The notes under the pieces were generated by a model. That model saw nothing but the letters and a program-made list of their open reading frames with translations, was not told where the DNA came from and did not search any database. A stretch of DNA of 64,000 nucleotides from Methanolobus profundi (GTDB lineage: Archaea > Halobacteriota > Methanosarcinia > Methanosarcinales > Methanosarcinaceae): the NCBI RefSeq assembly GCF_900114835.1, contig NZ_FOUJ01000003.1, forward strand, positions 124,001 through 188,000, written 5' to 3'. A program made the position numbers and the translations under genes. Below are positions 19,141 to 40,257 of this stretch, in pieces. Each line of letters starts with the position of its first letter. The stretch's first letter is position 1.

Positions 19141-20943
19141 ATGACTTTAGAAAGCAAGTGTATAATAATCGCAGGCGAGGAAGCTGGCCCCAGGTCCAAT
19201 AAGATGGGGGGTATCTGGAATGTTATCGATGCAGAAGCAAAGAGTCTCGCCAGTCTGATCAGCAAAGGTATTATCGACAAGGAGACAGCACCCAGTATCA
19301 TCGTTGCCGGACCGTACTATGGACACAGCGGTTCTGACTGGAACAAAGGCCTTAACCGTATCACCGATATGAGCGCTTTTGAGGAGATGGAACCGGAAGG
19401 AGAGTTCTTTGAGACAATGGAAGAGCTGAAGAGAAGAGGTATAGAATCCTTCGTGGGGATCGAGATGATCAAAGGTGTTAAAGTGATACACCTTATGTTC
19501 AAGACCGATGATTTCTGCAGGGTCAGCAGGGAATACAAAGGTCAGGAAATGTGTCTTGCCAGCATGATCAAAGCAGAGGCATTCGACCTTATAGGTCTTG
19601 ACTCCATGACCTATGAGAGTATGGGTAACGGCATGGAATACTCGCATTACCTGAACCTGTCATATGCATTATCGGAATTTATAAGGGCACTTGTTACTGC
19701 CAGGGAGAAAAGTTCGGAAGAGTATCATGATCAGGCCATCTCAGAGTTTGCAGCATCCCTCATGCCAGCTGTCCATGTATCACTTCACTGTCATGAGTTC
19801 GGTGTTTTCTATGCACTCGCACGCCTGAAGAAACTTGGCATAAGCGTCAAGACCGTTGCAACATACCATGCAACCCTTCCCGGAAGATCATCAGGACATT
19901 ATTCCATCCAGAAAATAAGAGATAACGATAGTTCGTGGGACAGCGGCGTTCCCATCAACCATGCAAAACTGGAATCCCTTTCTGCCTACGCGGACGTGGT
20001 TACAGCGGTCGGTGACTCTACACGAAAAGAAATTAAGCTTTTCTATGGGATAGATTCCATTATTGTTCGCAATGGAATAGATAAGGAAGATGAAGAGATA
20101 GACTGGGACAAGAAGAACGCCTCCAGGAAAAAGATACAGGAATTCCTCTCTGAGAAGATATACAATGTTTTCGATAGCAAGGTAATTCCACCGGATAGGA
20201 TCATACCGATATTCTCGATCTCACGTATAGAAATAGAGAACAAGGGTTATCCTGACCTGCTGGATTCCCTCCTCATACTTGACCGGATGGTCAAGACCGA
20301 GATCGATGCCGGACATCTTGATGAGAACTATCGTGTCATATGTTTCATTATTGCAGCTCAGGGTCCAAAGACAAATCTCCCTGAGAACTTCCCGGTCAAT
20401 TTACCGGAAGAGGTCCTTGTAGGTGAGGAGATACGCCTTCAGCAAATGATACAGTCCAGAGGACTTGGATGTTCAAAGATACCTGATGGTACCCGTCATG
20501 TTTCAGCGGTCCTGTATCCGCAGTGGATATCAGACCATGATGGCGGACTTAACATGAACCCTGATGAGTTCATGGCCGGATGTATAGCCGGTGTTTTCCC
20601 CTCCAAATATGAACCGTTCCTGCTCACCGGACTGGAGGCCGGAAAGGAATCCACACCAAGTATCGTAAGCAAGGTATGTGGCTTCAGTGATGCGCTCAAG
20701 ACCCTGAAAAGACTGGTCATGGGAATGGGAGGAGTGATCGTTGTGGACAACATCTCCATACCCTATCTTGAATCGATCGCAGACTATGCACTTGCCATGG
20801 ACTACTTCATCGACACTTTCACAGATGACAAGGTCAAGTATAACCTCCTCTGTCAGGAAGCGAACCTGCTGGCAAGGGACATGAACTGGGAAGAACCTAT
20901 CAAAACGTATTATGAACTTCTTACAGGAACGATACTGGAGTGA
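19141..20943 (+). CDS. Glycogen synthase, eukaryotic-type (GT3-like)
   Basis: Glycosyltransferase of 600 aa that should extend alpha-1,4-glucan from a sugar nucleotide. It is not the bacterial GlgA (GT5) type: the N-terminus SNKMGGIWNVIDAEA and the C-terminal SKYEPFLLTGLEAG (retaining GT E-x7-E region) resemble glycogen_syn/GT3 of animals and fungi. A SLHCHEFG segment and an ATYHATLPGRS segment fit the N-terminal GT-B domain. It is the first gene of a long cluster. Spacing of 3 bases to galT suggests translational coupling. The donor (UDP- or ADP-glucose) is undetermined. Confidence 0.85.
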   Translation: MTLESKCIIIAGEEAGPRSNKMGGIWNVIDAEAKSLASLISKGIIDKETAPSIIVAGPYYGHSGSDWNKGLNRITDMSAFEEMEPEGEFFETMEELKRRGIESFVGIEMIKGVKVIHLMFKTDDFCRVSREYKGQEMCLASMIKAEAFDLIGLDSMTYESMGNGMEYSHYLNLSYALSEFIRALVTAREKSSEEYHDQAISEFAASLMPAVHVSLHCHEFGVFYALARLKKLGISVKTVATYHATLPGRSSGHYSIQKIRDNDSSWDSGVPINHAKLESLSAYADVVTAVGDSTRKEIKLFYGIDSIIVRNGIDKEDEEIDWDKKNASRKKIQEFLSEKIYNVFDSKVIPPDRIIPIFSISRIEIENKGYPDLLDSLLILDRMVKTEIDAGHLDENYRVICFIIAAQGPKTNLPENFPVNLPEEVLVGEEIRLQQMIQSRGLGCSKIPDGTRHVSAVLYPQWISDHDGGLNMNPDEFMAGCIAGVFPSKYEPFLLTGLEAGKESTPSIVSKVCGFSDALKTLKRLVMGMGGVIVVDNISIPYLESIADYALAMDYFIDTFTDDKVKYNLLCQEANLLARDMNWEEPIKTYYELLTGTILE

Positions 20944-21943: not shown

Positions 21944-23110
21944 ATGAAAGAGATGTTACGGATCGCCATGTTCTCCTGGGAGAGCCTTCATTCCGTGAAG
22001 GTCGGAGGACTGGCACCCCATGTGACCGAGCTTTCAGAGGCTCTAGCCGCTATGGGTCATGAGGTCCATATATTCACAAGGAACAGGGACATGCTTCCCT
22101 ATGAGATAGTCAACGGGGTTCATTACCACCGTATATTCCATGCCCTTTACGGCGGGATAGTGCAGCAGATGGACAGTATGTGTGATTCCATGTACGCTGC
22201 TTTTATCGAGGCTACACAGGATTTTGGTGAGTTTGACCTCACACACGTACATGACTGGCATCCTGTCAACCTTGTATGCAGGCTCAAAGATGAGTTCGGA
22301 CTCCCATTTGCCATCACCTACCATAGTACAGAATGGGGCAGGAACGGTAACCAGCATGGTAACTGGTGGGAAGCCATAGAGATAAGCCATCGTGAATGGA
22401 GAGGAGGATATGAATCCGCATGTGTCATATCCACATCAACGATCCTGACAGATGAGATCCAGCATCTCTATCAGATACCCGATAACAAGATATCCATAGT
22501 GCCCAACGGCATACATGAGAACAAGATGCAGATGGGTGTTGACCCTGGTAAGGTCAAGGAAGAGTATGGGATACATCCATACGCACCGGTCGTTCTCTTT
22601 GTAGGAAGGATGAACTACCAGAAAGGTCCTGACCTTTTCATAAGGGCAATACCTGATGTGCTTGCAAGACGATGGGATGCAAAGTTCGTAATTATAGGTG
22701 AAGGAGAGATGCGTGCTGAATGTGAGCACATATCCTATGAACTGAACATCCGGGATAGCTGTCATTTCCTGGGTTATGTTGATGAATCGGTCAAGAAGAA
22801 ATGGATGAATGCCTGCAACCTTATATGTGTTCCAAGCCGTAACGAGCCCTTTGGCATCATATTATTAGAGGCATGGGATGTCAGTAAGAACATCGTGGCA
22901 ACAAATGCGATCTCACTTATCGATAACTTCAGGGACGGGGTTATAGTCTACCAGAACCCCGAGTCCATTGCATGGGGAATAAACCATGTACTGGATAACT
23001 ATGATGACGATGAGCTTGGGAAAGTAGGAAAAAAGCTCATTGGGACCAGGTACAACTGGAACAACATAGCAGAAATGACAGTGGATGTTTACAGAAAAAT
23101 GCTTTCATGA
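21944..23110 (+). CDS. GT4 glycosyltransferase, paralog A
   Basis: GT-B fold glycosyltransferase of 388 aa. The N-terminal glycine-rich donor/acceptor loop MFSWESLHSVKVGGLAPHV, the C-domain start GRMNYQKGPDLF, and the phosphate/hexose motif RNEPFGIILLEAWD (E-x7-E) are typical. The start at 21944 is chosen over an overlapping TTG at 21911 because GGAG lies ten bases upstream and the paralog at 33047 starts at the matching point; both then have 388 residues. It likely adds alpha-glucosyl units (glucan priming or synthesis), but sugar and acceptor are unknown. Confidence 0.88.
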   Translation: MKEMLRIAMFSWESLHSVKVGGLAPHVTELSEALAAMGHEVHIFTRNRDMLPYEIVNGVHYHRIFHALYGGIVQQMDSMCDSMYAAFIEATQDFGEFDLTHVHDWHPVNLVCRLKDEFGLPFAITYHSTEWGRNGNQHGNWWEAIEISHREWRGGYESACVISTSTILTDEIQHLYQIPDNKISIVPNGIHENKMQMGVDPGKVKEEYGIHPYAPVVLFVGRMNYQKGPDLFIRAIPDVLARRWDAKFVIIGEGEMRAECEHISYELNIRDSCHFLGYVDESVKKKWMNACNLICVPSRNEPFGIILLEAWDVSKNIVATNAISLIDNFRDGVIVYQNPESIAWGINHVLDNYDDDELGKVGKKLIGTRYNWNNIAEMTVDVYRKMLS

Positions 23111-23203: not shown

Positions 23204-24229
23204 ATGATGCCCGGAAGTCTGGTCCATGTGGGAGAAAAAAGGACCGAGAAACCAAAGATAACCATTATAGACTACGACAGGACAAATTATCACGAAAAGA
23301 CCGTTGATGATGTAGAGGAATGTTTCCCTTTCAAAGATTCCTCTACAGTATCATGGATCAATATCGATGGTATCCACCAGGTAGATATTATTGAGAAACT
23401 TGGAAAGCACTTTGGTCTGCATCCACTTGTAATGGAAGATATCGTCCACACAAGCCAGCGACCGAAGATGGAGGACTATGATCACTACATATATGTTGTT
23501 CTCAAGATGCTCTGGTTCTCAGAAGAAGATGCTGATGTGAAAGCGGAACAGGTCAGCATAATACTTGGAAAGGGCTTTGTGATATCATTCCAGGAAATAG
23601 AAGGCGATACTTTCAATTCTGTAAGAGAGCGCATCAGGAACTCAAAAGGAAGGATCCGTACAATGGGTGCTGATTATCTTGCATACGCGCTCATTGACTC
23701 CATAGTCGACAATTATTTCATAATCATTGAGAGATTCGGGGATATCATAGAGGAACTGGAGAACAAGTTGATAGATGACCCAAATCCTGAAACCCTGCAA
23801 AGCATACACGACATGAAAAAAGAGATGATATACCTGCGAAAGTCAGTATGGCCTCTCAGGGAAGTTATAAACGGGATGGAAAGAACGGAGTCGGCTCTTT
23901 TTCAGGACACGACCTTTGTATTTCTGAAAGATGTCTATGATCACACCATCCAGATCTCGGAGACGATCGAAACGTACCGCGACATACTCTCCGGCATACT
24001 GGATGTCTATCTGTCAAGCGTCAGCAATAAAATGAACGAAGTTATGAAAACGCTTACTATCATAGCCACCATCTTCATACCACTGACATTCCTTGCAGGG
24101 ATGTATGGAATGAACTTCTCCTATATGCCGGAACTTGGATGGAAATGGGGATATCCTGCCGTATGGATCATCAATATAACGATATTCCTGTCAATGTATA
24201 TATATTTCAGAAAGAAGAACTGGCTTTGA
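23204..24229 (+). CDS. corA: CorA family Mg2+ transporter
   Basis: Divalent-cation channel of about 341 aa. A large N-terminal cytosolic alpha/beta domain is followed by long stalk helices and two C-terminal transmembrane helices joined by the signature YGMNF (GMN motif) near residue 305. The annotated ATG follows GGAAGG. In-frame sequence upstream (reading NRVSRKAG before the ATG) resembles the usual CorA N-terminus and reaches an ATA at 23165 after GGGGTG, so the true start may lie upstream at a non-standard codon. It sits inside the glucan cluster with the channel gene at 24978. Confidence 0.92.
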   Translation: MMPGSLVHVGEKRTEKPKITIIDYDRTNYHEKTVDDVEECFPFKDSSTVSWINIDGIHQVDIIEKLGKHFGLHPLVMEDIVHTSQRPKMEDYDHYIYVVLKMLWFSEEDADVKAEQVSIILGKGFVISFQEIEGDTFNSVRERIRNSKGRIRTMGADYLAYALIDSIVDNYFIIIERFGDIIEELENKLIDDPNPETLQSIHDMKKEMIYLRKSVWPLREVINGMERTESALFQDTTFVFLKDVYDHTIQISETIETYRDILSGILDVYLSSVSNKMNEVMKTLTIIATIFIPLTFLAGMYGMNFSYMPELGWKWGYPAVWIINITIFLSMYIYFRKKNWL

Positions 24230-24258
24230 TCACAAAGAATAACGGATGCCGATAGAAA

Positions 24259-24981
24259 ATGTATGAGATATATCATCCACCATTCACTACAGAACTAACA
24301 GATTTCGAAGATACTGTAATTACAGTTGAAAAACAAGGTAGCGACCTTGTATACAAGCGTACATTCCAGGGAAAAGAAGAAACAGAGCTTGTGCTGCTGA
24401 ACAATGACGGTGACATTCTCATAAATCCTATAGAACCGGTGAATCTGCCAAGAAAACTTACATCGTTCCTCCTTATAGAGTTCAAACGTCCGGCTTTGAT
24501 ACGCCCCGGTGATAGAAAGAAGATATATCTTACATTCCCCGTGGAAATAGGCGTCTTCGTCACTGACAGGTCAGGGAACCATGAGGTCATCGATACTTTC
24601 ACCTTTTCCAGAGTGAAGTTCACCCTTTATGGAAGCCATAATCATGGACTTATCTGCAGACACTGGGAGAGTGACGTGTACTCTGAAGAACCAAAGACCG
24701 ATCTGATGCATGAAGGGTACATCGAGCTTGAGATCATCAATGATTCTAATCACATGATGGAGGTCACACAGGCTGTATTCAATGCCTACGGCATGAAGAT
24801 CTACTATGGTGACAGTAGAATTGGCATGAAGGCATCCATGCGGATCATAAACAAGCTTCTGGCTGAAACTGATTTCAGCACATATCCTACAACCTCACGG
24901 TTCAAGAGGTCAATGGAGCTCTATACCTCACGTAAGCTGATCATAAACGGAACAAAGGGAATAATGGAGTTCGGCCTATGA
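24259..24981 (+). CDS. DUF432 family protein
   Basis: The 240-aa protein is of the conserved archaeal DUF432 type. It has no membrane segment or signal peptide. Its middle is beta-rich with VEIGVFVTDRSG and a GLICRHWESDVY segment. Function is unknown; members commonly lie next to MscS channel genes. Here its stop overlaps the start of MscS by four bases (ATGA), so the two proteins are translationally coupled and may form a complex or a channel-regulatory pair. The ATG at 24259 has no strong Shine-Dalgarno; GATAG lies just before it. Confidence 0.78.
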   Translation: MYEIYHPPFTTELTDFEDTVITVEKQGSDLVYKRTFQGKEETELVLLNNDGDILINPIEPVNLPRKLTSFLLIEFKRPALIRPGDRKKIYLTFPVEIGVFVTDRSGNHEVIDTFTFSRVKFTLYGSHNHGLICRHWESDVYSEEPKTDLMHEGYIELEIINDSNHMMEVTQAVFNAYGMKIYYGDSRIGMKASMRIINKLLAETDFSTYPTTSRFKRSMELYTSRKLIINGTKGIMEFGL

Positions 24982-25832
24982 CCAACAGCACCATTATCAC
25001 ACAATACATCCCACCGCTCTCTGATCCTTTCCTGCAGATAATTACCGTTGTACTGATACTCTTTTTCACCGTTGTATTAGGCAAAGGTATCACAATATAT
25101 CTTCAGAGAACGCTAAAGGACAAGATGGACAAAGAGCACCTTAACATCCTGCTCAAGACCATTTACTACGGACTGATAGTGCTTGTAATTCTCGGAGTGA
25201 TATTCCCGGTACTTGACATTGATACTTCCGGTCTTCTTGTGGCTGGTGGTGTTGTGGGTATCGTCATTGGTTTTGCCAGTCAGAGCATCGTAGGTAATTT
25301 CATATCAGGGATATTCCTGATGGTCGAGCGTCCTATAAAGATCGGAGATCAGGTAAATATCGATAACAAACTAGGATATGTAGAGGACATCAAGATAATA
25401 TCCACTATCATTCGAACATATGAAGGGCTCTACATCAGGTTACCGAATGAGACCGTTTTTACAACAAGTATCACGAACTACGTGGCAAACCTGGTAAGGA
25501 GGTTCGAGTATGTTGTGGGTATACGTTATGAAGATGATGCGGATAAGGCCATAGCGATCATCAAGGACCTTATAGATGAGCAGCCCTATGCACTTGTAAA
25601 TCCGTCTCCAAGCGTATTTGTAGACAATCTTGGAGATAATGCTGTGAATATCACTGTCAGGGTATGGGCACCTGCTGTTGAATGGTATGACACTAAGACA
25701 AAGCTCCTCTGGATCATCAAGAAGACGCTTGAAGAGAATGGAATAGAGATAGCCTTCCCACAGAGAACTGTATGGTTCGCAAACGGGCTTGATACAAGGA
25801 ACATGGACGGGAATGGGATCCATGAAGACTAA
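24978..25832 (+). CDS. Mechanosensitive channel, MscS family (coupled to DUF432)
   Basis: MscS-type channel of 284 aa: helices at about residues 19-38, 58-80 and 85-113, the last being the Gly/Ala pore helix (GGVVGIVIGFASQSIVGNF), the beta domain beginning PIKIGDQVNIDNKLGYVEDI, and a C-terminal domain ending near AFPQRTVWF. It overlaps DUF432 by ATGA and is followed 18 bases later by the first GH57 gene. It shares family but not close identity with 16384-17244. Placement inside a glucan cluster is the noteworthy point. Confidence 0.9.
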   Translation: MTNSTIITQYIPPLSDPFLQIITVVLILFFTVVLGKGITIYLQRTLKDKMDKEHLNILLKTIYYGLIVLVILGVIFPVLDIDTSGLLVAGGVVGIVIGFASQSIVGNFISGIFLMVERPIKIGDQVNIDNKLGYVEDIKIISTIIRTYEGLYIRLPNETVFTTSITNYVANLVRRFEYVVGIRYEDDADKAIAIIKDLIDEQPYALVNPSPSVFVDNLGDNAVNITVRVWAPAVEWYDTKTKLLWIIKKTLEENGIEIAFPQRTVWFANGLDTRNMDGNGIHED

Positions 25833-25850: not shown

Positions 25851-26981
25851 ATGAAAGCAGTATGTGTTTGTTTCGAGGTACACCTGCCTTTACCAGTTCG
25901 CTGGTACTGGCCACAGGAAGGCTACGGGGAAGTCCATATAGAGAAATACTTCGACATGGAGAAGGCATTCCATAATTTCACAAAACTTTCAGAGAATCTG
26001 GAAACCCTCAACGATACCCTCGCAGAGTCCATAGATAACGGAGGAAAATATACACTGGATGTATCCGGTGTCTTCCTTGAGCAATGTAAATGGGCACCTG
26101 AGGTGATCGAAGGCTTCAAAGGTCTTGACAGGAAGAGTGTCTCATTTGCTGCTTCACCATATTATCACTCGGTATGTTCGATGTTCCCTGATATGAAAGA
26201 GTTCAGGGAACAGGTAGAGATGGACCTTAAAATAATAAAGGAACTCTTTGGCAGAGAGGCAACGACATTCGTTAATACTGAACTCCTTTTTGAGAGAAAG
26301 ACACTGAAAGTGCTCAAAGAGATGGGGTTCAAGTGCATTATCTCGGAAGGTTCCCATAATATCACGAACGGTTACGACCCCATGCATGTTTACAATAATG
26401 ATATCCCCACGCTCCTGAGACACATAAACCTGAGCGAGGACCTTGAGATCAAGTTCTCTGACAAAGCATGGTCAGGGTATCCACTTATCGCCGACAAGTT
26501 CGCATCATGGATAGCAAGCATGGAAGGGGACGTTATCACGCTCTACATAAAATATGATGCTATAAACACACATCTTCAGAACAACAAGGAGATACTCAGG
26601 TTCCTGAAAGAGATACCGCTGAGCTTCAAAAAACAAGGGATCAGAATGGTACTGGCAGAAGAGGCTGTAGAGATGTTCAAAAGCACAGAGCTTTCCTCCC
26701 TTGGATCAAAGACAACAGCACGTTACGGTATGCATAACCTGCTTGGGAACCATGCACAACATCTTTTCATGCACGAGCTTGTGGATATAGGAGAACAGAT
26801 AGGATCAGTAAAGGATCCTGAGAAGAGAAAGGAATTGCTCCGGATCTATCGTTACCTGCAGCAGAGCGAGGTTTTCCTGGAGATGAACTCTGAAGAGAGA
26901 CGCCTTGGATATGAAAGGGCTGTGAACGACCTCTCTATACTCTCTGATATAGAACGTGCTGTCATGGAGGAACAAAGATGA
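25851..26981 (+). CDS. GH57-like protein, probably catalytically impaired
   Basis: The 376-aa protein has the fold signature of glycoside hydrolase family 57 (alpha-amylase/4-alpha-glucanotransferase type) and is a paralog of the next gene. The nucleophile block NTELLF is kept (Glu144). The acid/base block, MDYETFGEH in the neighbour, reads IKYDAINTH here, so the catalytic Asp is replaced by Lys234. The N-terminal HQPYR block is HLPLP. It is therefore likely a non-catalytic or altered enzyme, perhaps a glucan-binding or regulatory partner. It overlaps the active paralog by four bases (ATGA), suggesting equimolar expression. Confidence 0.82.
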   Translation: MKAVCVCFEVHLPLPVRWYWPQEGYGEVHIEKYFDMEKAFHNFTKLSENLETLNDTLAESIDNGGKYTLDVSGVFLEQCKWAPEVIEGFKGLDRKSVSFAASPYYHSVCSMFPDMKEFREQVEMDLKIIKELFGREATTFVNTELLFERKTLKVLKEMGFKCIISEGSHNITNGYDPMHVYNNDIPTLLRHINLSEDLEIKFSDKAWSGYPLIADKFASWIASMEGDVITLYIKYDAINTHLQNNKEILRFLKEIPLSFKKQGIRMVLAEEAVEMFKSTELSSLGSKTTARYGMHNLLGNHAQHLFMHELVDIGEQIGSVKDPEKRKELLRIYRYLQQSEVFLEMNSEERRLGYERAVNDLSILSDIERAVMEEQR

Positions 26982-28174
26982 ACTCTATCTGCCCTTTTTT
27001 CGAGGTTCATCAGCCATACAGGCTCAGATGGTTCTGGCCTGACAACAAACAGGGATTTGACAGGTATTTCGATGAAAAGGTGAACAAAGAGATATTCCTG
27101 AAGGTGGCAGGTAAATGCTATCTTCCGGCCAACCGGACACTCCTGGAACTTACAGACAGTACGAATGGAAATTTCAAGGCAAGCATGTCGGTTACAGGCA
27201 CACTGCTGGAACAATGTCTGGAGTGGGGAGAGGACGTACTTGATTCATTCCGTGACCTTGCCGAAACCGGCTGTATCGAGTTTGTGGATGAGACATGTTA
27301 TCATTCCCTGGCATCTTTATTCGGCTCGAAGGAAGAGTTCATGGACGAGGTAAAGGAGCATCAGAGACTCGTATCTGAGCTACTGGGGGTAACCCCACGA
27401 ATATTCAGGAACACTGAGATGCTCTACAATAACAGCATTGCACATTTTGCAGACCAGATGGGATACAAGGCCATTATGAGCGAAGGGATCGAACGCGTAC
27501 TCAGCGGCAGGTCCCCTGACCATGTATACAAGGCAAAATATGCAGATATAGCAGTTCTTCTCCGCAATTACAAGCTAAGTGATGATATCGGTTATCGTTT
27601 CTCATCCCGATGGTGGGAGGAATACCCGCTGACTGCAAACAAGTGGGCAGACTGGGCTTTCTGGAACAAAGGTGAGACACTGAACATATTCATGGATTAC
27701 GAGACCTTCGGTGAACACCAATGGGAAGATACCGGTATCTTTGATTTCCTGAAGGCACTTCCGGGAGAGGTAATGGACAGAGGGATGAGATTCCTGACAC
27801 CATCACAGACGATCGAGGCCTACAAACCTGCAGGTGATATCGATGTTGGTGATTTCTCCACGATATCATGGGCAGATGTTGAAAGAGATACGAGCGCCTG
27901 GCTAGGAAATGATATGCAGAGACGTTGCTTTGAAGAGATGAAGATACTTGGGGATTACGTCAAAAAGACAGAAGATGCAGAGCTGCTGAGAATATGGAAA
28001 CATATGCTCACATCGGACCACTATTACTACATGAGCACAAAGTGGCTGGGAGATGGGGATGTACACTCCTATTTCAGCATACATAATAGCCCATATGATG
28101 CAGCGGTTAACTTCATGGCAGCACTGACGGACTTCAAGGCACATGTATTCAGGACCCTGACATCAACAGAATGA
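26978..28174 (+). CDS. GH57 alpha-amylase/glucanotransferase, active-type
   Basis: Glycoside hydrolase family 57 protein of 398 aa, cytosolic (no signal peptide), expected to hydrolyse or rearrange alpha-1,4-glucan. The five-block pattern is present: HQPYR at the N-terminus, a middle CYHSL block, RNTEMLY with nucleophile Glu147, MDYETFGEH with acid/base Asp240, and the later helical region. Its length is typical for short archaeal GH57 amylases and too short for GH57 branching enzymes. Its start overlaps the stop of the impaired paralog. Confidence 0.88.
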   Translation: MNSICPFFEVHQPYRLRWFWPDNKQGFDRYFDEKVNKEIFLKVAGKCYLPANRTLLELTDSTNGNFKASMSVTGTLLEQCLEWGEDVLDSFRDLAETGCIEFVDETCYHSLASLFGSKEEFMDEVKEHQRLVSELLGVTPRIFRNTEMLYNNSIAHFADQMGYKAIMSEGIERVLSGRSPDHVYKAKYADIAVLLRNYKLSDDIGYRFSSRWWEEYPLTANKWADWAFWNKGETLNIFMDYETFGEHQWEDTGIFDFLKALPGEVMDRGMRFLTPSQTIEAYKPAGDIDVGDFSTISWADVERDTSAWLGNDMQRRCFEEMKILGDYVKKTEDAELLRIWKHMLTSDHYYYMSTKWLGDGDVHSYFSIHNSPYDAAVNFMAALTDFKAHVFRTLTSTE

Positions 28175-28217: not shown

Positions 28218-29027
28218 ATGGTGAGAGATCTTTACATGTTCTCCAAAGTGGATCCGGAAGCAGACGTTGTCTGGTTCAAGATCAACTATGAGAACACATT
28301 GCATTCTGAAGCTGATATCACAGCATTTTTCGCAGACAAGGACCTTGATATCAGATTTGCATACCTTGATAGTTCAGAGGACCCTAGTAAAGGGAAGTAC
28401 GTGATGTTCACTGAAGCAAAAAAAGGCAGAGACATCAAAAGTATAGCTGAAGAACTTGAAAAAAAGGACATAGTCCTTGGTCTTGACTGGGGATATTCGA
28501 AGAACAGGGTCATCCAGTCAGTAGATTTCCCACTACATATCCTGGGAGACAGGGCTGTCATGATCAGGGCCAAGACCTTTGTGAATTTCCTCAATGTACT
28601 GAACGAACATGTACCACAATCTGAAGGTCTGTTGACAATTGTAGGGCTGAGGAACGGTGAAGGCGCTGCAAGGTATCTCCGGGGAGTTACCGAAATGGAT
28701 GATAGTAATTTCCTTGAATTGCTCAAAGAACTGCTTATGGCAGCCGGCTGGGGCATTCTCGATTATGATATGGACGTTGATGAACTGAAAGGAAGTGCAA
28801 GGATAAGAGAATCCTTCATTGCAGGGGAATACGAGGACAGTGATACTCCTGTTTGTGGATATATCAGCGGTTTCCTTGCAGGTTATATTTCCGAGTCATT
28901 GGGAAAAGTTGTGCAGGTCCGTGAGACCAGATGTGAATCCATGGGTGATGTTCTTTGTGAACATATCATCTCTCCCGTTCCGGAAGGGGCAAAGATCGAA
29001 CACCTTCTCAGGGGAGGATCGAATTGA
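28218..29027 (+). CDS. V4R-domain protein with N-terminal ACT-like region
   Basis: Protein of 269 aa, no signal peptide. The C-terminal 150 residues match the V4R (4-vinyl reductase) small-molecule-binding fold: RNGEGAARYL, a GWG near residue 176, VCGYISGFLAGYISE and the Cys-containing end ETRCESMGDVLCEHI. The N-terminal 110 residues look like a small alpha/beta domain. V4R domains often act as sensors in archaeal regulators. Its place between the amylases and glucoamylase suggests it senses a metabolite of the pathway, which is inference. The ATG at 28218 is preferred to the TTG at 28212 given GGGAG at 28204-28208. Confidence 0.78.
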   Translation: MVRDLYMFSKVDPEADVVWFKINYENTLHSEADITAFFADKDLDIRFAYLDSSEDPSKGKYVMFTEAKKGRDIKSIAEELEKKDIVLGLDWGYSKNRVIQSVDFPLHILGDRAVMIRAKTFVNFLNVLNEHVPQSEGLLTIVGLRNGEGAARYLRGVTEMDDSNFLELLKELLMAAGWGILDYDMDVDELKGSARIRESFIAGEYEDSDTPVCGYISGFLAGYISESLGKVVQVRETRCESMGDVLCEHIISPVPEGAKIEHLLRGGSN

Positions 29028-30982
29028 TCAGACAACCCAATTCCATCCTTGGGAATGAACGACTTCTGGTAACCATGGGAAAGAAAGGGGAGATCTTCGG
29101 TTATTATTACCCGGGAAAGGATTTCGCACAGCATGTTGAAGAATCTCAGGCCTGTATCCATGATGGAAAAGGGCTCATCTGGTCCAATGCCCGTGAATGG
29201 GTAGCCGACCAGAAATATATCGATAATACAAATATAGTGAGCACAGAGCTCACCCATCCTTCCGGACTTAAGATGGAGATACTGGACTTTGTCCACCCAA
29301 CCCTTCCGGTACTTGTACGCAAATACAAGTTAAGTTCCACCCACAGCTTCCATGGAAAGTTCTTCTATTTCTCGAACCTCCAGGTTGGAGAGATGAAGAA
29401 AAAGAACTCCGGGTTCTGCGATTACGATTCAGGTCTTCTGGCACAATACTGGAAGAACTACTATGTAGGGATCACCTCAACACCACTGTTCGAGGAATGG
29501 CAGGTAGGCAAATCAATGGACACTATCTGGTGGACAAATGCCAAATTCGACATGGAAGATGGCGAACTTCAGCGAAACAATGAGGATATAGGCAACCTTA
29601 ACTGCGCTGTTGGATGGAAACTTGATCTTGAACCATCAAAACCTGTTGAGATCACTGTTTTTATAGGAGCTGCCTCAAGAAGACCGGCACTTTACAGAAG
29701 GATGCGAGAGGTACTGAAAGAACCTGTTGAGAGAATATATAATGATACACAGGAGAAGTGGATCAAATGGCTCTCGAAAAAAAAGCTTCTCGAATTACCT
29801 GATTACCTGGGTTTTCAGGAATTCCGCCTGGAACTTATGAAGGCTTTCAACAGGTCCATACTTGCACTGAGCATACTCAATGATCCGGGAAAAGGATCAT
29901 TTCTTGCTGCTCCAGAGTTCGACCATGAATTCGAGATGAGCGGGGGATACGGCTATTGCTGGCACAGGGATTCTGCCGAGATCGTCACGTCACTTATGGA
30001 AGCTGGTTATCCTGATTATTGCTCCCGTTTCTTCAAATGGTGCAAAGGCACGCAGCTTCAGGACGGATCATGGTTCCAGCGTTACTGGCTTGATGGGAAT
30101 ACTGCTCCTTCATGGGGAAATTTCAGCTATTCCACACAGATCGATGAAACGGGTTCAACGATATTTGCAATGAACAGCTATTATCAGACCCTTGACCAGC
30201 CTGTAAAAGCGGAATTCCTTGACAATATGTGGGCAACGGTCCTGTGTGCAGCAGAATATCTCATGAGAAGAACCAGCAGCGGAATACATGAAACATGCCT
30301 GTGCCTCTGGGAAACACATTCCGGTATATTCACCTACACCAATGCCGCCATATATGCAGGACTCATCGGAGCCGCGAACATGGCTATCGATTATAATGAA
30401 AAGGGACTTGCAGACAGATGGACCGAGAGGGCCGAGTTTATCAAGAGGACCACTATCGAGAAATTCTGGCTTGATGAAGGATACTTTGCCAGGGGAATGA
30501 AAGATGGGGCGTATGATAATGCTATTGATGCTAGTATAATCGGTGTATTTGTTCCTTTCAACATGCTCTCTCCAACAGACAAGAAAGAGAGAGAGATGAT
30601 CAAGTCTATCATACGTAATATCGAAAAGTATCTCAGAGTACCTGTCAATGGCCATTTTGGTATCAAACGATATGTAGATGATACATACATCGATGGAAAT
30701 CCATGGGTTGTAACCACCCTCTGGCTTTCAAAGGCATTGCTCGAACTGGCATTGACCAGCGATGATACCGACAGGGAAGAATTGAGTGCACTTACCCATG
30801 ATGCGCTAAAATACATCCAATGGTCACTTAAGGGTGCAACCGGAGCGGGAATGTTACCGGAACAGGTGAATAAATACACAGGAAGACCTGCATGGGCAAT
30901 ACCGCTCAGCTGGAGTTGTGCACTCATGCTTGACAACATCATGCTTCTGGACGATCTCCAGAAGAAACTGGACAGGGACTGA
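29024..30982 (+). CDS. Glucoamylase, GH15
   Basis: Glucan-1,4-alpha-glucosidase type enzyme of 652 aa releasing glucose from non-reducing ends, cytosolic. An N-terminal beta-sandwich domain (about 1-250) precedes the (alpha/alpha)6 barrel with GYCWHRDSAEI, the QDGSWFQRYWLDG block, the catalytic-acid region QIDETGS, and the base-containing MLPEQVNKYTGRPAWAIPLSW near 615-635. The TTG start overlaps the V4R stop (TTGA) and is preceded by GGGGAGGATC, a near-perfect anti-16S match, so the rare start codon is credible. Confidence 0.9.
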   Translation: MIRQPNSILGNERLLVTMGKKGEIFGYYYPGKDFAQHVEESQACIHDGKGLIWSNAREWVADQKYIDNTNIVSTELTHPSGLKMEILDFVHPTLPVLVRKYKLSSTHSFHGKFFYFSNLQVGEMKKKNSGFCDYDSGLLAQYWKNYYVGITSTPLFEEWQVGKSMDTIWWTNAKFDMEDGELQRNNEDIGNLNCAVGWKLDLEPSKPVEITVFIGAASRRPALYRRMREVLKEPVERIYNDTQEKWIKWLSKKKLLELPDYLGFQEFRLELMKAFNRSILALSILNDPGKGSFLAAPEFDHEFEMSGGYGYCWHRDSAEIVTSLMEAGYPDYCSRFFKWCKGTQLQDGSWFQRYWLDGNTAPSWGNFSYSTQIDETGSTIFAMNSYYQTLDQPVKAEFLDNMWATVLCAAEYLMRRTSSGIHETCLCLWETHSGIFTYTNAAIYAGLIGAANMAIDYNEKGLADRWTERAEFIKRTTIEKFWLDEGYFARGMKDGAYDNAIDASIIGVFVPFNMLSPTDKKEREMIKSIIRNIEKYLRVPVNGHFGIKRYVDDTYIDGNPWVVTTLWLSKALLELALTSDDTDREELSALTHDALKYIQWSLKGATGAGMLPEQVNKYTGRPAWAIPLSWSCALMLDNIMLLDDLQKKLDRD

Positions 30983-31013: not shown

Positions 31014-32963
31014 ATGAACAATGCTGAACACTTTGGAACAGAGAAGGAATGGATCATAACCAATGGTCTTGGTGGATATGCATCTTCCACGATAGTTGGT
31101 ATGAACACACGAAAGTATCACGGATTGCTGATAGCCTCGCTGGCCCCGCCTGTTGAGAGGAAACTCCTGCTATCATCCCTCGATGAAGAGCTTATTATAG
31201 GTACTGAATTCCACAAACTCGCTGTACACAGATACCCGGGACAGGTTCATCCACATGGATATGAGTTTCTTGAGAACTTCACTGCTCACCCATTTCCAAC
31301 GTTCGAATACAGAGTAAATGGAATAAAGATCACTAAACAGATCACGATGGTGCATGGAGAGAACACCACTATTGTACGATATGATATCAAAGGTCCACCT
31401 GAAGAAAAATGTGTTCTCAGAATATTACCACTGGTCAATAACAGGTCCATACACCATCTTAGCAGTTCTGCCGGACTGTCCATCGCACAGGAAGCTATGG
31501 AAACAGGAACTGAACTTCAAAGCAATGGGACCGATCTCAGACTTTGTTCCGATATGCAATACAGAGCTGATGAACACTGGTATTATAATTTTGAATATGA
31601 ACTTGAGCTTGAAAGAGGATACCCATACAGAGAAGATAACCTGGATCCAGGATACTTTGAACTGGAGATCGAAGGAAAGGATACTTCCTGTTTTATCGTT
31701 GCATCCACTGAACCCGGCAAGAAATGGGACATGCAGAAGGTTCAGGAACTATTTGAAGACGAGATCATACGCCAGAGATCTCTGCCAGGTAAGGAAGGAA
31801 GAGAGGACACTTTCCTTGAGAAACTTATACTCGCCGGTGACACATTCATAGTTAACAGACGGTCCACTACCTCAAGATCGATAATTGCTGGCTATCACTG
31901 GTTCGGGGACTGGGGACGTGATACAATGATCTCGCTTCCGGGACTCACCCTTGTGACCGGAAGGTTCGATGATGCCAGGTCCATACTTTCCACTTTTGCT
32001 GCTAACTGTAAGGATGGACTGATACCTAATAACTTCCCGGAAAGTGCAGAAGAGACACCGATCTACAACACAGTGGACGCATCGCTCTGGTTCATACATG
32101 CCCTGGGAAAATATCTGGAATATACAGATGATATTGAATTCGTCAGTACTCTCTGGCCTACGGTTGAGAGCATACTTGACAACTACAGAGAAGGAACTTC
32201 ATTCGGTATTCGAATGGATGATGATGGTCTCATAGAACATGCTGGTCAGCTTACGTGGATGGATGCTAAGATCGGGGACTGGGAAGTCACTCCAAGAAGT
32301 GGAAAAGCATGTGAGATAAATGCACTGTGGTACAATGCACTGATGTATGCGGTGATCATAGGAGAGCGCATTGGATCGGATAATTTGAATCATCGGGATG
32401 TCGCTGAACTTGCAGGTAACAGTTTCAGAGAGAAGTTCTGGAATGAGGAAAATGGTTGTCTGTATGATCTGATATCAGGATCATCGGGGGATGAATGGAA
32501 GGATAGTGCCATAAGACCTAATCAGATATTTGCAGTATCCCTGCCTCATACAATGCTAACTGAAGAAATGGCAGGAGGGATAGTTGATACTGTGGGCCGG
32601 GAACTGCTGACACCTTATGGACTAAGGACACTCTCGTCCCATGACAGCCAATATGTAGGACGATACAGAGGCAACACGGAACAGAGGGACAGTGCGTATC
32701 ATAACGGTACTGTCTGGCCCTGGTTACTTGGACCTTACATAACGGCTTGCAGTAAAGTGAACAAAGATATGCCAGCTCTTGAAGATAAGCTTCGAGCCTT
32801 GCTTCAAGGTATAGGAGAGCATATCGATGACGCCGGTATCGGTACCATATCCGAAGTCTTCGACGGCGACAGTCCTCATGCCCCGGGAGGCTGCATATCT
32901 CAGGCATGGAGTGTGGCCGAGATAATGAGATGTTATGTGGAAGATATACTGTCTATAAGATAA
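31014..32963 (+). CDS. Glycogen debranching enzyme (amylo-alpha-1,6-glucosidase type)
   Basis: Protein of 649 aa with an N-terminal GDE_N domain (NGLGGYASSTIVGMNTRKYHGLLIA near the start) and a C-terminal alpha/alpha barrel GDE_C domain with GYHWFGDWGRDTMISLPGL, LTWMDAKIGDWEVTPR and NGTVWPWLLGPY blocks. It should remove alpha-1,6 branches from glycogen so that the GH57 and GH15 enzymes can proceed. An in-frame TAA lies six bases upstream of the ATG at 31014, fixing the start; its ribosome binding site is weak. Confidence 0.9.
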   Translation: MNNAEHFGTEKEWIITNGLGGYASSTIVGMNTRKYHGLLIASLAPPVERKLLLSSLDEELIIGTEFHKLAVHRYPGQVHPHGYEFLENFTAHPFPTFEYRVNGIKITKQITMVHGENTTIVRYDIKGPPEEKCVLRILPLVNNRSIHHLSSSAGLSIAQEAMETGTELQSNGTDLRLCSDMQYRADEHWYYNFEYELELERGYPYREDNLDPGYFELEIEGKDTSCFIVASTEPGKKWDMQKVQELFEDEIIRQRSLPGKEGREDTFLEKLILAGDTFIVNRRSTTSRSIIAGYHWFGDWGRDTMISLPGLTLVTGRFDDARSILSTFAANCKDGLIPNNFPESAEETPIYNTVDASLWFIHALGKYLEYTDDIEFVSTLWPTVESILDNYREGTSFGIRMDDDGLIEHAGQLTWMDAKIGDWEVTPRSGKACEINALWYNALMYAVIIGERIGSDNLNHRDVAELAGNSFREKFWNEENGCLYDLISGSSGDEWKDSAIRPNQIFAVSLPHTMLTEEMAGGIVDTVGRELLTPYGLRTLSSHDSQYVGRYRGNTEQRDSAYHNGTVWPWLLGPYITACSKVNKDMPALEDKLRALLQGIGEHIDDAGIGTISEVFDGDSPHAPGGCISQAWSVAEIMRCYVEDILSIR

Positions 32964-33046: not shown

Positions 33047-34213
33047 ATGGAAACATTGAGAATTGCAATGTTCTCATGGGAGAGCCTCCATTCTGCAAAG
33101 GTGGGAGGACTGGCTCCTCATGTGACAGAATTATCTGAACAACTTGTAAAGCTGGGACACGAAGTACACATATTCACCCGTAGTGGGTGGTATCGTGACT
33201 ACGATAAGATAAAAGGAGTACATTATCAGAGGTGTAACTTTGACGAGTCGGGAGATATAATCGATCAGATGAACAAGATGTGTGATGCGATGTACTCCAG
33301 GTTCATTCAGGTATCAAAGGAATTTGGAAGTTTTGATATTATACATGGACATGACTGGCATCCTGTGAACGCATTGAATAAGATCAAGTACAAATGTGGG
33401 AAACCTTACGTAATGACCTACCACAGTACTGAATGGGGTCGCAACGGTAATGTTCACCTGAACTCTCCTACGTCAACTGAAGTATCTCACAGGGAATGGC
33501 TCGGCGGGTATGAGAGTTCTGAAGTGATAATAACATCTGATAATTTTAAAAGAGAAGTGCAGAACATCTACAGCATTCCTGATCATAAGATATCAGTGAT
33601 ACCTAACGGTATATCTCCGGGAAAGATGGAGAAGGATATTGACCCTGGGTCTATAAAGCAAGATTATGGTATCCATCCTTTCGCTCCTGTGGTGCTTTTC
33701 ACAGGTAGAATGCATTATCAGAAAGGACCTGATCTTCTTGTTAAAGCGATACAAAAGGTACTCGATGGTAACTGGGGAGCACATTTTGTATTTATAGGTG
33801 AAGGGGAAATGAGGCAATATTGCCAGGATCTTGCCAATGACCTGAACGTAGGCCAATCATGCCATTTCTTAGGTTACTCACCTGATGAGGTTCTTAAAGA
33901 CTGGACCAATGCATGTGACATGACATGCGTCCCAAGCAGGAACGAACCTTTTGGGATAGTTGTTCTCGAATCATGGGATGCTAACAAAGCAGTTGTTGCA
34001 ACCGATGCAGTGAATATAGTTGATAATTTCCAGAATGGGGTTTTGAGTTACAGGAATCCGGAATCCATAGCATGGGGTCTTAACTATGCCATGGATGGAC
34101 TGGATTCAGGTACACCTGTTATGGGAAATAACGGTAAGCATCTGGTCAGGACAAAGTTCTCATGGGACACCATTGCCAAAAGTACGATCCAGGCGTATAA
34201 AAGAACTACATAG
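33047..34213 (+). CDS. GT4 glycosyltransferase, paralog B
   Basis: GT4 enzyme of 388 aa, same length and motif set as paralog A (21944-23110): MFSWESLHSAKVGGLAPHV, GRMHYQKGPDLL and RNEPFGIVVLESWD. The two keep identical DWHPVN and YHSTEWGRNGN blocks, so they arose by duplication and now flank the hydrolase genes. The 83-base upstream gap contains a TATA-like TATGATATTTAT, so it may have its own promoter. GTGTGGG precedes the ATG. Confidence 0.88.
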   Translation: METLRIAMFSWESLHSAKVGGLAPHVTELSEQLVKLGHEVHIFTRSGWYRDYDKIKGVHYQRCNFDESGDIIDQMNKMCDAMYSRFIQVSKEFGSFDIIHGHDWHPVNALNKIKYKCGKPYVMTYHSTEWGRNGNVHLNSPTSTEVSHREWLGGYESSEVIITSDNFKREVQNIYSIPDHKISVIPNGISPGKMEKDIDPGSIKQDYGIHPFAPVVLFTGRMHYQKGPDLLVKAIQKVLDGNWGAHFVFIGEGEMRQYCQDLANDLNVGQSCHFLGYSPDEVLKDWTNACDMTCVPSRNEPFGIVVLESWDANKAVVATDAVNIVDNFQNGVLSYRNPESIAWGLNYAMDGLDSGTPVMGNNGKHLVRTKFSWDTIAKSTIQAYKRTT

Positions 34214-34664: not shown

Positions 34665-37268
34665 ATGGAAAATAGATCGAAATATTATTTACCTGTTATT
34701 GCAGCAATGGTCCTGATGCTACTATCAGGCACTACCATGGCTGCGAATAACAGCACAGGAAATCGTATATGGGACGCAGATGAGAATATGTCCCTTGAAT
34801 ATACATGGACAGCACTTAGCTACTCCGGTTTTTACTTCGACCTTGATTCAGGAGAAGGCTCAGAAACACTGACCATCAGCCTTGACAGTGACAGTGACAG
34901 GAATATAGGTGATGGCGACCTTGAGTATTCCACAACACCTATAGACACTGATTTTGAGCAGGGTGACTGGGGATCATATCAGGTCATCGGATTCATGGCA
35001 GAGAGATACTTTGCAGGTTACACCGATGATACGGAATTTGCAGATGATGATGTAAGCCTGATATCTGATGGGATCCTTACAAAGGTCCTTCAGGATGATG
35101 ATGAAGAGATCTCTTTCTACTCAGGTTCTTCCCTTGTACTTGAAGAAGGTTACGAACTGAACCTGGAAGAAGTAGATGTGAACGGAAACAGTGTCCTTGT
35201 GACCCTCGAGAAAGATGGAGATCAGGTAGACACAGATATTGTGTCTTCTGATGATGACTACATCTATGAGATCGAACTTGGGGAAGAAGATGTTCCTATC
35301 ATAGTAGTTCATTTCAACAACATATTCCAGGGAACTGAGACGAATGCAGTATTCGTTGAAGGTATATTCCAGATATCAGAGGATTATATCGAGATCGAAG
35401 CCGGTGACACATTTGGAAAGATGGAAGTAGACGCACTTGGCTCGGACATGATCACAATGGAGAACTCAGACTCCATCAGCCTTGGCAGAGGAGACTCCGT
35501 CACGATCATGGGTAAATTGAAGTTCATAGTTGCTGATGACAACACCCTGAGATTCGGACCTATAGTCGACATGTCAGACCCTGGTACCTATGAACTAAGA
35601 GGTACTGTTGCTGAAGATGAAGAACTTGAATGGACACCTCTTAACTTTGAAGGATTCTATTACAACATTGATGAAGGTGTAGGAACCGAGTCACTTGAAG
35701 TGAAGGACCTCAGTGGAAGAACTATCGACGATGGGGACCTTGTATATAGAAGTGTACCACTGGATGTCAGCTTTGAACACGATGACTGGGGAGAGTTCCA
35801 GGTTATCGGATTTATGGCAGAGAAGTACTTCGCAGGATATCCTGACAACGAGTTCACCGATGATGTAAGCCTGCTTTCCGATGGTCAGCTCTCAGAAGTA
35901 CTGATCGACGAGGACAGCAAGAGATCACTTTACTCAGGTTCTTCACTTGTACTAGAGGATGGCTATGAACTTTATGTTGTCGAGGTAGACCTTGACGGTA
36001 GCAGTGTAATGGTGAACCTGGTCAAAGACGGAGACGATGTAGATACAGGAATTGTTTCTTCAGATGATGATTACGTGTATGAGAAAGACATGGGATCAAC
36101 CGATGATGTACCTATCATTGTAGTGCACTTCGATGAGATATTCCAGGGAACCGAGACAAATGCGGTATTCGTCGAAGGTATATTCCAGATATCAGAAGAT
36201 GTCGTTGAGATCTCCGATGATGAGAAGTTCGGTGAGATGGAAGTGAAGAGCTTTGACTCTGATCAGATAGTTCTTGAGAACGAGGATTCAATATCACTTT
36301 CAAGAGGAAAGATCATCGAGATCATGGGAGATATAGCATTCAACGTTGCAGATGATGGTGATGTACGTTATTATCCATTCGTGGAAGTATCCACAGTGCC
36401 TTCACAGTCACTCTCTATTGATGTAAACTCTGTCATAGAGGAAGATGAGAAGGTAGAGATCACAGTAACATCCAGAGGTGCTGCAGTGGAAGATGCACTT
36501 GTCATGTTCGGCGATGAAGAGGTAGGAGAGACATCAACAGAAGGTATTGTGACATTCAGACCTGGTTCTGCCGGCACCTTCACTGTCACAGCTGAGAAGG
36601 AAGGTTATGTTTCAGCAAGTGAGAAGGTCGAGGTCGTATCCTCTGATGATGCAAGCAGGACCCTTGTGATCGAAGTCGCCCCTGATACCGTTGTAGAGGA
36701 GGACACTATCACGATCACTGTCATGACAGCCATTGGTGGCGACCTTGTGGAGGATGCACAGGTCTACTATGACAGCAAGGATATAGGAACCACAAATGCA
36801 AACGGAATGGTCACCTATACTGTGAAAGAAACAGGATTGCACAAACTGACAAGCTCTGCAGACGGTTATCTTGAGGCTGAACTGAACCTTGAGGTGCTCG
36901 CACTTGAAGCAAAGTTCACCTATTCCAACCTGCAGGCTTCACCTATCCTTGTGAAGACAGGAGAAGAGGTCACCATAACTGTCAATGTTGCAAACACCGG
37001 TACAGCTGAAGGAGACAAGGATGTTGACCTGAAGATCAACGGAACTGTTGTGGATACTCAGAGTGTTACACTCGATGCAGGCGAGGAAACGAATCTGGCT
37101 TTCACTGTATCACAGGAAGAAGCAGGCACCTATGAAGCACAGGTAGGAGATGCCACCGTAACCTTCGATGTTGAGAAAAGTTCGATCCCCGGACCTGGTA
37201 TAATTGTTTCAATGGTCGCATTGGTAGCTGTTGCAATGCTGATACGCAGGAATGAAAGAAAGGACTGA
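34665..37268 (+). CDS. S-layer-type surface protein with duplicated S-layer domain
   Basis: Exported protein of 867 aa. A signal peptide covers residues 1-26 (cut after SGTTMA). Two tandem copies of the Methanosarcinales S-layer domain (DUF1608) follow, about 35-300 and 310-575; both contain GFMAE.YFAGY and GTETNAVFVEGIFQISED. Then come two Ig-like/PEGA-like beta domains (about 585-750), a CARDB-like domain and a C-terminal IPGPGIIVSMVALVAVAML segment with basic tail, similar to archaeosortase sorting signals of the PGF-CTERM type. The whole is very acidic. It should be a major or alternative sheath subunit. GGGGATGAT precedes the ATG. Confidence 0.9.
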   Translation: MENRSKYYLPVIAAMVLMLLSGTTMAANNSTGNRIWDADENMSLEYTWTALSYSGFYFDLDSGEGSETLTISLDSDSDRNIGDGDLEYSTTPIDTDFEQGDWGSYQVIGFMAERYFAGYTDDTEFADDDVSLISDGILTKVLQDDDEEISFYSGSSLVLEEGYELNLEEVDVNGNSVLVTLEKDGDQVDTDIVSSDDDYIYEIELGEEDVPIIVVHFNNIFQGTETNAVFVEGIFQISEDYIEIEAGDTFGKMEVDALGSDMITMENSDSISLGRGDSVTIMGKLKFIVADDNTLRFGPIVDMSDPGTYELRGTVAEDEELEWTPLNFEGFYYNIDEGVGTESLEVKDLSGRTIDDGDLVYRSVPLDVSFEHDDWGEFQVIGFMAEKYFAGYPDNEFTDDVSLLSDGQLSEVLIDEDSKRSLYSGSSLVLEDGYELYVVEVDLDGSSVMVNLVKDGDDVDTGIVSSDDDYVYEKDMGSTDDVPIIVVHFDEIFQGTETNAVFVEGIFQISEDVVEISDDEKFGEMEVKSFDSDQIVLENEDSISLSRGKIIEIMGDIAFNVADDGDVRYYPFVEVSTVPSQSLSIDVNSVIEEDEKVEITVTSRGAAVEDALVMFGDEEVGETSTEGIVTFRPGSAGTFTVTAEKEGYVSASEKVEVVSSDDASRTLVIEVAPDTVVEEDTITITVMTAIGGDLVEDAQVYYDSKDIGTTNANGMVTYTVKETGLHKLTSSADGYLEAELNLEVLALEAKFTYSNLQASPILVKTGEEVTITVNVANTGTAEGDKDVDLKINGTVVDTQSVTLDAGEETNLAFTVSQEEAGTYEAQVGDATVTFDVEKSSIPGPGIIVSMVALVAVAMLIRRNERKD

Positions 37269-38515: not shown

Positions 38516-38538
38516 AAAAGGGATCTTTAACCCTTTTT
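38516..38538. terminator. Convergent terminator DUF2149 / amylase
   Basis: AAAAGGG (38516-38522) pairs with CCCTTTT (38531-38537) across an 8-base loop; the A- and T-tracts serve both strands. It overlaps the amylase stop codon. Confidence 0.55.
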
Positions 38539-40257
38539 GAGTATTGATATACCATAGGCGTCAAGTGGGACCTTTACTACCATTCTTGAACCTGATGTTT
38601 CTGCAAAGAACTCCTTCTCAGGGTCAAGAAGATCGATCATCCTCTGGCCCTCACTGTTCAGGCTCTTATCTATTACTACGTAGTCATTTCTTGGTTCCTG
38701 ATCCAGGTTCATGGCAATAATTATCTCAGTTGTATCAAGTATCCTTGAATATGCAAGGGTACATTTTCCGCTGCAGGGATGAGAATAATCATTTCCATTG
38801 GCCGAGGTTTGCCGGAAATACTGTCTTCCGTACCTCAGGGCCTTTTCCATTTTCCTGACCTTTGCCACATCGGATATACCTGCATATATTGGGTGCCACG
38901 GATCGAAGAAATGATGGCCTGTTGTGTTGAAGGCTCCCCAGTTCCCTCCGAACATGCATTCCCTTATGTACGCATCATCATGCCCCCCACCATCAAAACC
39001 CTGTTCTGTGCCGTAATAGATGCATGGGATACCCTGTGTTGTCAGAAGATAGGACATGGCAAGGACGGCCTGCTCATGGATCATGTTCCCATGCATGAAG
39101 CGTCTGTATGGACGTATCATCTGGTCATGATTGTCCACAAAGGTCACAAAATAGCGGCCTGCTTCCCCATGATCTGTATAAAGGTCCCTGAAGGCATCAT
39201 AGCGATCCCGCAGGGCAGAAGGGTCACTGAAACCCTTGATCACCTCTTCCAATACAAAATAGAGAGGGAAGTCCAGTGCTGCATCAAGGGAAGGGAAGCG
39301 TTCGTTTGTTCCTGGAATACGACTGTTGCGCCCTATATAGTTCTGTATGGTAGTATCATCACCAACTATCTCTCCGAATATGAAGAAATTGTGTTTACCG
39401 ATATAACGTGCATATTCCTTTATAGCATTACAGAAAATGGCCGTGGAGCTGGATTCCAGATGTTTGACCGTGTCCATTCTGAAGCCATCGATATCAGCCT
39501 TCCTTATCCAGTACTTGTAGACCTTGATCAGTGTATCAAGGACAGAGGACTGCCTTACATCAAGTTCTTTCAGGGTGAAGAAATCACCGTTTACCGCCTG
39601 ATCGTGATCATTCCAGTCCCTGATCTGCCCTCTTCGTTTATAGCATGCAGGATCCTGTAGCTCCTCAGGCCATACGGCATCATTGGCCAGGAAAGGATCG
39701 CTATCTTTTCTTTTGCCTGAAGTCCTCCAGTATCCAAAGTCAAAAGGACCCGGCGCATCCTTCCAGTAATAATATGGATGATCTGCCGGATAGGCCCAGT
39801 TGTCCCCTGTGTGATTGATGATGATGTCAAGGATCACATACATATCACGAATGTGGGCTTCGCGTACCAGTTCCTGAAGATCTTCCAGTGTTCCGAACCG
39901 TTCATCCACTTTCAGGAAATCCTGTATGCCATAACCATGATAACTGTCATCCATTTCCTGCCGGTTCCTGAATACCGGACTTAACCATATGGCATTGGCA
40001 CCAAGACCTTTGATATAATCCAGTCTTCTGGTAATACCTTTAATATTTCCGCCCTGGAACCTCTTCCCCTGTGATATATCTGGTTCCTGCGCTTTTACGG
40101 ATGAGTCATATAACTCCAGATCATCCTCATTGTTATCGAACCTGTCCACCAGTAAAAAATAGATGAAAACATCCCTCCAGTCAAGCGGAGAAGGAAAAAC
40201 GTCATCATTAGGTGTAAAATCTATATCGTTAACTGATCGTACATCATTCTGTCCCAT
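38527..40257 (-). CDS. Alpha-amylase family protein, GH13
   Basis: Cytosolic GH13 enzyme of 576 aa (no signal peptide). The (beta/alpha)8 barrel shows region I ILDIIINHTGD, region II DGFRMDTVKH with the nucleophile Asp, region III FIFGEIVGD with the acid Glu, and region IV FVDNHDQM. A C-terminal beta domain follows. The start FIYFLLVDRFDNN is common in neopullulanase/maltogenic-type amylases. Together with the 19-34 kb cluster it adds another alpha-glucan hydrolase. Its own promoter lies near 40325 (TATA-like ATATAATTTATT on the minus strand). Confidence 0.9.
   Translation of the reverse strand: MGQNDVRSVNDIDFTPNDDVFPSPLDWRDVFIYFLLVDRFDNNEDDLELYDSSVKAQEPDISQGKRFQGGNIKGITRRLDYIKGLGANAIWLSPVFRNRQEMDDSYHGYGIQDFLKVDERFGTLEDLQELVREAHIRDMYVILDIIINHTGDNWAYPADHPYYYWKDAPGPFDFGYWRTSGKRKDSDPFLANDAVWPEELQDPACYKRRGQIRDWNDHDQAVNGDFFTLKELDVRQSSVLDTLIKVYKYWIRKADIDGFRMDTVKHLESSSTAIFCNAIKEYARYIGKHNFFIFGEIVGDDTTIQNYIGRNSRIPGTNERFPSLDAALDFPLYFVLEEVIKGFSDPSALRDRYDAFRDLYTDHGEAGRYFVTFVDNHDQMIRPYRRFMHGNMIHEQAVLAMSYLLTTQGIPCIYYGTEQGFDGGGHDDAYIRECMFGGNWGAFNTTGHHFFDPWHPIYAGISDVAKVRKMEKALRYGRQYFRQTSANGNDYSHPCSGKCTLAYSRILDTTEIIIAMNLDQEPRNDYVVIDKSLNSEGQRMIDLLDPEKEFFAETSGSRMVVKVPLDAYGISILKKG

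Follow-up and report, generated by a model that had tools for sequence, protein, structure and literature searches.

A putative GH57 pseudo-enzyme encoded in tandem with an active-type paralogue in the glycogen locus of Methanolobus profundi

Why does the glycogen locus of Methanolobus profundi encode two overlapping GH57 proteins, one of which lacks the catalytic aspartate? The two genes lie in a 64,000-nucleotide stretch of DNA that was analysed as a whole (hereafter, the window) and that belongs to a genome of 3.1 Mb in 18 contigs. ORF A (376 aa; 25851..26981, + strand) and ORF B (398 aa; 26978..28174, + strand) share the start/stop sequence ATGA (26978..26981, + strand). Both products match PF03065 (Glyco_hydro_57) far above the Pfam cut-off (184 bits for A and 268 bits for B, in which no other Pfam domain was found) and are 30% identical to each other (BLASTP, E 3e-59). 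A and B are GH57 paralogues.

The predicted structures agree with this assignment. AF2 models of A and B reached pLDDT values of 89.1 and 90.2, respectively, and their best PDB matches in Foldseek were GH57 transferases, branching enzymes and amylopullulanases, with TM values of ~0.6–0.7 against 3P0B, 5WU7 and 3N8T. Single-sequence searches of the PDB with A and B returned no match, and a profile of A retrieved noise and one sub-threshold GH57 match. With a profile of B, Glu147 aligned with Glu123 of the 4-alpha-glucanotransferase of Thermococcus litoralis (1K1W). By Pfam domain and barrel fold, both proteins therefore belong to GH57.

The paralogues differ in their active sites. B carries Glu147 in the motif FRNTEML and Asp240 (codon 27695..27697, + strand) in IFMDYETFGEH, and neither residue varies among the 54 B orthologues. 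In A, the corresponding motifs are FVNTELL, with Glu144 (26280..26282, + strand), and LYIKYDAINTH, with Lys234 (26550..26552, + strand). Pairwise alignment and an alignment with 127 relatives both place Glu144 of A on Glu147 of B and Lys234 of A on Asp240 of B; the HQPYR block of B reads HLPLP in A in the pairwise alignment. The catalytic positions are separated by 90 residues in A and 93 in B, close to the spacing in the Aquifex amylopullulanase as given by the mutants E256/D352 in PDB titles. A thus possesses the Glu nucleophile of GH57 on strand 4 and is without the Asp acid/base on strand 7 that marks an active enzyme of the family. These alignments bear out what the first-pass annotation had read from the letters, namely paralogues overlapping by ATGA, the second with an intact Glu147 and Asp240 and the first with Glu144, a lysine at the Asp site and an altered HQPYR block.

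Loss of the acid/base residue extends to most A proteins. Across 56 of them, the acid/base column holds Lys in 33, Asn in 14, Arg in 4, Asp in 4 and Ser in 1, such that Asp is replaced in 52 of 56; it is Asp in all 54 B orthologues and all 19 single-copy homologues. The nucleophile column is less variable (Glu in 53 of the A proteins, Gln in two and Asp in one). Among the four A proteins with Asp at the acid/base site, one (L052) has Gln and another (L067) Asp at the nucleophile site, so that Glu and Asp occur together exclusively in L049 and L050, Methanomethylovorans-type A proteins from genus g11. Both catalytic residues are hence kept in the A protein of one of the 12 genera sampled. In these two proteins, which sit on a long internal branch, the Asp is followed by GSVSWN or GTIPWN instead of ETFGEH; the catalytic residues may have been retained or regained there, possibly along with residual activity. 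As the varying catalytic residues differ between A lineages, the simplest reading of the alignment is an early loss of activity followed by drift at these positions. Asp236 of A, considered as a substitute acid/base, aligns with Glu242 of B, and its column is variable in the 56 A orthologues (Asp 33, Ser 10, Gly 4, Thr 3, Glu 2); the finding that could have overturned the pseudo-enzyme proposal, an acid/base role for this residue, thus did not materialize.

The differences between the paralogues extend well beyond the catalytic pair. A lacks Gln12 and Arg15 (both in the HQPYR block), Glu242, Glu246 and Trp249, the CSR-5 residues His348, Tyr350 and Tyr351, and, through a deletion, the loop with SWADxE; B and the single-copy homologues vary little or not at all at these positions, Tyr350 being nearly invariant and Tyr351 invariant. 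The GEH motif is likewise absent from A. Common to both proteins are His11, Trp220, His241 and Glu166-Gly167 (the SEG motif), and their conservation in A fits a retained sugar cleft.

Despite these losses, A is kept for a purpose: the substitution pattern indicates strong purifying selection. Over 18 pairs, omega was 0.03–0.14 for A and 0.02–0.08 for B, the evolutionary rate of A is ~1.5 times that of B, and the A reading frames are open throughout the family. Phylogenetically, A forms a single clade (support 100/100) and B another (100/99), and a topology joining A and B as one clade, which bears on the age of the duplication, was neither preferred nor rejected (p-AU 0.36), long branches limiting the resolution. 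The A clade was found almost exclusively in Methanosarcinaceae, with one pair (that of L067) from another family of the order, and nearly all of its nearest relatives in named genomes are Methanosarcinaceae, the closest being Methanolobus. Distances of A and B correlate with an r of 0.95, which mostly reflects a shared species history.

The arrangement of the two genes is as conserved as the proteins. The overlap is exactly 4 bp in 53 of 54 pairs, well beyond what chance would give, and the remaining pair is separated by a gap of 2. A GGAGG sequence within the 3′ end of A (26966..26970, + strand) is the likely ribosome-binding site for B; 48 of 54 pairs have a motif of this kind inside A, no more than 18 nt ahead of the B start. 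Both genes were found in 79 of 86 genomes of good quality and neither was found in the other seven, so that, together with the constant overlap, A and B look like one inherited unit. In three drafts of 60–83% completeness that were counted as pair-positive (G001, G101 and G111), one partner is partial or absent. Conserved ATGA overlap, GGAGG-like site and strict co-inheritance strongly support the earlier suggestion that the first protein is translated together with its partner.

What, then, is A for? The reading we consider probable is that A is an inactive GH57 paralogue, born from an old duplication, translated in tandem with the active B and kept as its partner in one heteromeric glycogen enzyme. 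A decaying duplicate devoid of function would account for the faster evolution of A and its lost catalytic residues, but it is irreconcilable with the low dN/dS (omega 0.03–0.14), open frames, family-wide retention and constant overlap; we give it next to no credence, and random decay is ruled out by omega and conservation. It is also quite improbable that A is active by way of a modified mechanism, in which Glu144 would work with some other acid (Asp236, or the Lys/Asn at the acid/base site) or on another substrate. Such an enzyme would explain why the nucleophile is Glu in 53 of 56 proteins, why A retains the cleft residues His11, Trp220 and His241 as well as the SEG motif and why a few A proteins carry the acid/base Asp. 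However, with K/N/R/D/S at the acid/base site and D/S/G/T/E at position 236, no single replacement acid is conserved, three A proteins have Gln or Asp for the nucleophile, and many other active-site positions are gone. The pseudo-enzyme interpretation of the first-pass annotation is accordingly well supported, given several lost active-site positions, a conserved fold, strong selection and variability at either catalytic position.

A non-catalytic A could still act apart from B. As a free glucan-binding protein, i.e. a lectin or glycogen anchor made beside B but not in complex with it, A would be expected to conserve several cleft residues and to reside within the glycogen gene cluster, as it does. 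Yet a stoichiometric partner better explains the exact 4-bp coupling seen throughout the family and the finding that no good genome encodes A without B, which makes a free lectin unlikely. More broadly, co-inheritance would also fit two independent functions within one glycogen island, as an alternative to a coupled enzyme. In the heteromer that we favour, B would do the chemistry, and A, with its barrel and some of its cleft preserved, would bind glucan, stabilise B or steer it; a regulatory or glucan-binding subunit, as first suggested, is thus a plausible role for A. The reaction may be 1,6-branching, or branching and hydrolysis, rather than plain amylase activity.

There is a eukaryotic counterpart for such an arrangement. 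Plant ISA2 is itself catalytically inactive. The ISA1/ISA2 heteromer resembles the proposed A–B enzyme, by analogy only, in combining a catalytic subunit with a related non-active one in a storage-glucan enzyme (PMC3958451, PMC12510319), and differs in being a GH13 debranching enzyme of eukaryotes encoded by unlinked genes. For Arabidopsis, PMC3958451, and Sundberg 2013 as cited in PMC12510319, describe both ISA1 and ISA2 as necessary for a stable, active complex. The best reading by this analogy is that A may work as ISA2 does in its pair; if true, prokaryotes too would offer an example of a storage-glucan enzyme dependent on an inactive sister subunit.

The gene neighborhood connects the pair to glycogen. 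The locus comprises a GT3-type glycogen synthase (19141..20943, + strand; PF05693, 64.6 bits), a GalT-like protein recognised by eye, two GT4 glycosyltransferases, A, B, a V4R protein, a GH15 protein and a debranching enzyme. The V4R gene adjoining B (28218..29027, + strand; Pfam, with a weak ACT match) is followed by the GH15 glucoamylase-like gene, or oligosaccharide amylase (29024..30982, + strand; Pfam; TIGR01577 at 751 bits, under the cut-off of 821), and by the archaeal glycogen debranching enzyme (31014..32963, + strand; GDE_N and GDE_C in Pfam; TIGR01561 at 612 bits, over the cut-off). The GH15 gene is a neighbour of B in nearly every relative for which enough flanking sequence was available. 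The V4R gene adjoins B in most relatives and is apparently absent from Methanococcoides and some Methanolobus.

Across the family, the pair is linked most closely with the debranching enzyme. A and B occur in 94 of 112 genomes, all 94 of which encode this enzyme. Of the 18 genomes without the pair, 16 also lack it, the other two being G105, with a fragment only, and G002, which is 75% complete. Joint losses of pair and debranching enzyme are found within genera g10 and g14 and in g6/g8, and this scatter over several genera speaks for several separate loss events. For instance, the pair is absent from G031 and G035–G038 and present in G032–G034, all of genus g10, where genomes without the pair also lack the GT3 synthase. 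The g10 pattern recalls Methanohalophilus, in which glycogen synthase, alpha-amylase and debranching enzyme are reported from only a subset of the species (PMC6491703). Family-wide, the link with GT3 is looser, as some pair-positive genomes have no GT3 match.

A debranching enzyme implies branches, which something must make. A CBM48 domain is the mark of GlgB and GlgX/TreX. A CBM48 protein was found in five of the 112 family genomes, and 89 of the 94 pair-positive ones have no CBM48-type branching enzyme; no CBM48 domain was found in the M. profundi genome analysed here. GH13 proteins occur in 31 of 112 genomes and are absent from 64 of the 94 with A and B. Nearly every genome of the family has just two GH57 genes, namely this pair. 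The window does contain a GH13 gene near the locus (38527-40257, − strand), whose product falls below all NCBIfam cut-offs; given the GH13 and CBM48 counts, it is unlikely to be the family's branching enzyme. By elimination, B together with A is the main branching candidate left in most genomes. We tentatively propose, as a possibility short of a probable assignment, that A and B together supply the glycogen-branching activity for which Methanosarcinaceae otherwise seem to have no enzyme, B cleaving 1,4-linkages and the inactive barrel of A holding and presenting the acceptor chain, so that B would be diverted from hydrolysis towards 1,6-transfer. As a counterpoint, B resembles GH57 alpha-amylases in the Tyr-Tyr ending of CSR-5 and is shorter than characterised GH57 branching enzymes.

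This motif is a published specificity criterion, with Tyr-Tyr denoting GH57 alpha-amylases and Phe plus a non-aromatic residue denoting branching enzymes (PMC6037648). With both catalytic residues and the two tyrosines, B matches the alpha-amylases, and at 398 aa and with YY it falls outside the longer-chained branching enzymes. The alpha-amylase specificity is represented by one characterised enzyme, that of Methanocaldococcus jannaschii (PMC6037648); B shares the catalytic pair and CSR-5 Tyr-Tyr of this type, a likeness drawn from the class description. The GH57 branching enzymes of Thermus, Thermococcus and Pyrococcus match A and B in fold and in the step of glycogen synthesis proposed here, but each consist of one longer chain and show a distinct CSR-5 pattern, and by motif A and B stand outside that group. 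Single-copy archaeal homologues are mostly ~490 aa long and have no pseudo-partner, in contrast to the paired B of ~400 aa.

A itself has a known counterpart class. The name alpha-amylase-like dates from 2011 (Janecek & Blesak 2011) and covers GH57 proteins that are related to alpha-amylases but have lost one catalytic residue or both; in the set analysed in 2018, 60 of 126 were archaeal (PMC6037648). A fits this definition, and its orthologues may well be among the 126. The 2018 text describes sequence groups and mentions neither tandem genes nor Methanosarcina (PMC6037648). Unlike the groups described there, A comes with an active partner, to which a conserved overlap and co-inheritance bind it. 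Inactive GH57 alpha-amylase-like proteins are hence an established class, and the coupling to an active partner would be the new aspect: no description of an obligate coupled A–B pair was found in the openly accessible literature searched, nor did we find papers naming presumed M. acetivorans locus tags. Glycogen is stored by many archaea in which no branching enzyme can be recognised; whether GH57 'amylases' fill this gap is asked in a 2024 review, which cites a Sulfolobus GH57 mutant that loses most of its glycogen (PMC11046441). In Methanosarcinaceae, where the pair represents the only GH57 genes nearly everywhere, its co-inheritance with the debranching enzyme makes most sense if the glucan is branched, and the question is reducible to two genes in the genetically tractable Methanosarcina.

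Several other features of the window deserve mention. The V4R protein (28218-29027) weakly resembles the C-terminal part of MsvR, a regulator, and is possibly a regulator or ligand sensor for the glycogen operon. Two similar GT4 glycosyltransferases (21944-23110 and 33047-34213) flank the glycogen locus. Between the first of these and A lies a CorA-DUF432-MscS ion-channel cassette (23204-25832), in which DUF432 and MscS overlap by 4 bp; it is found in most Methanolobus, and Methanococcoides has a similar glycogen set without it. Further downstream, an 867 aa protein (34665-37268) that opens with a signal-like segment, consists of two similar halves and ends in a PGF-CTERM-like sequence looks, by eye, like a Methanosarcinales S-layer protein. 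Inspection by eye also revealed two related, secreted-looking proteins (58667-59848 and 61748-63238) with similar C-terminal regions, the second of which bears a long acidic tail.
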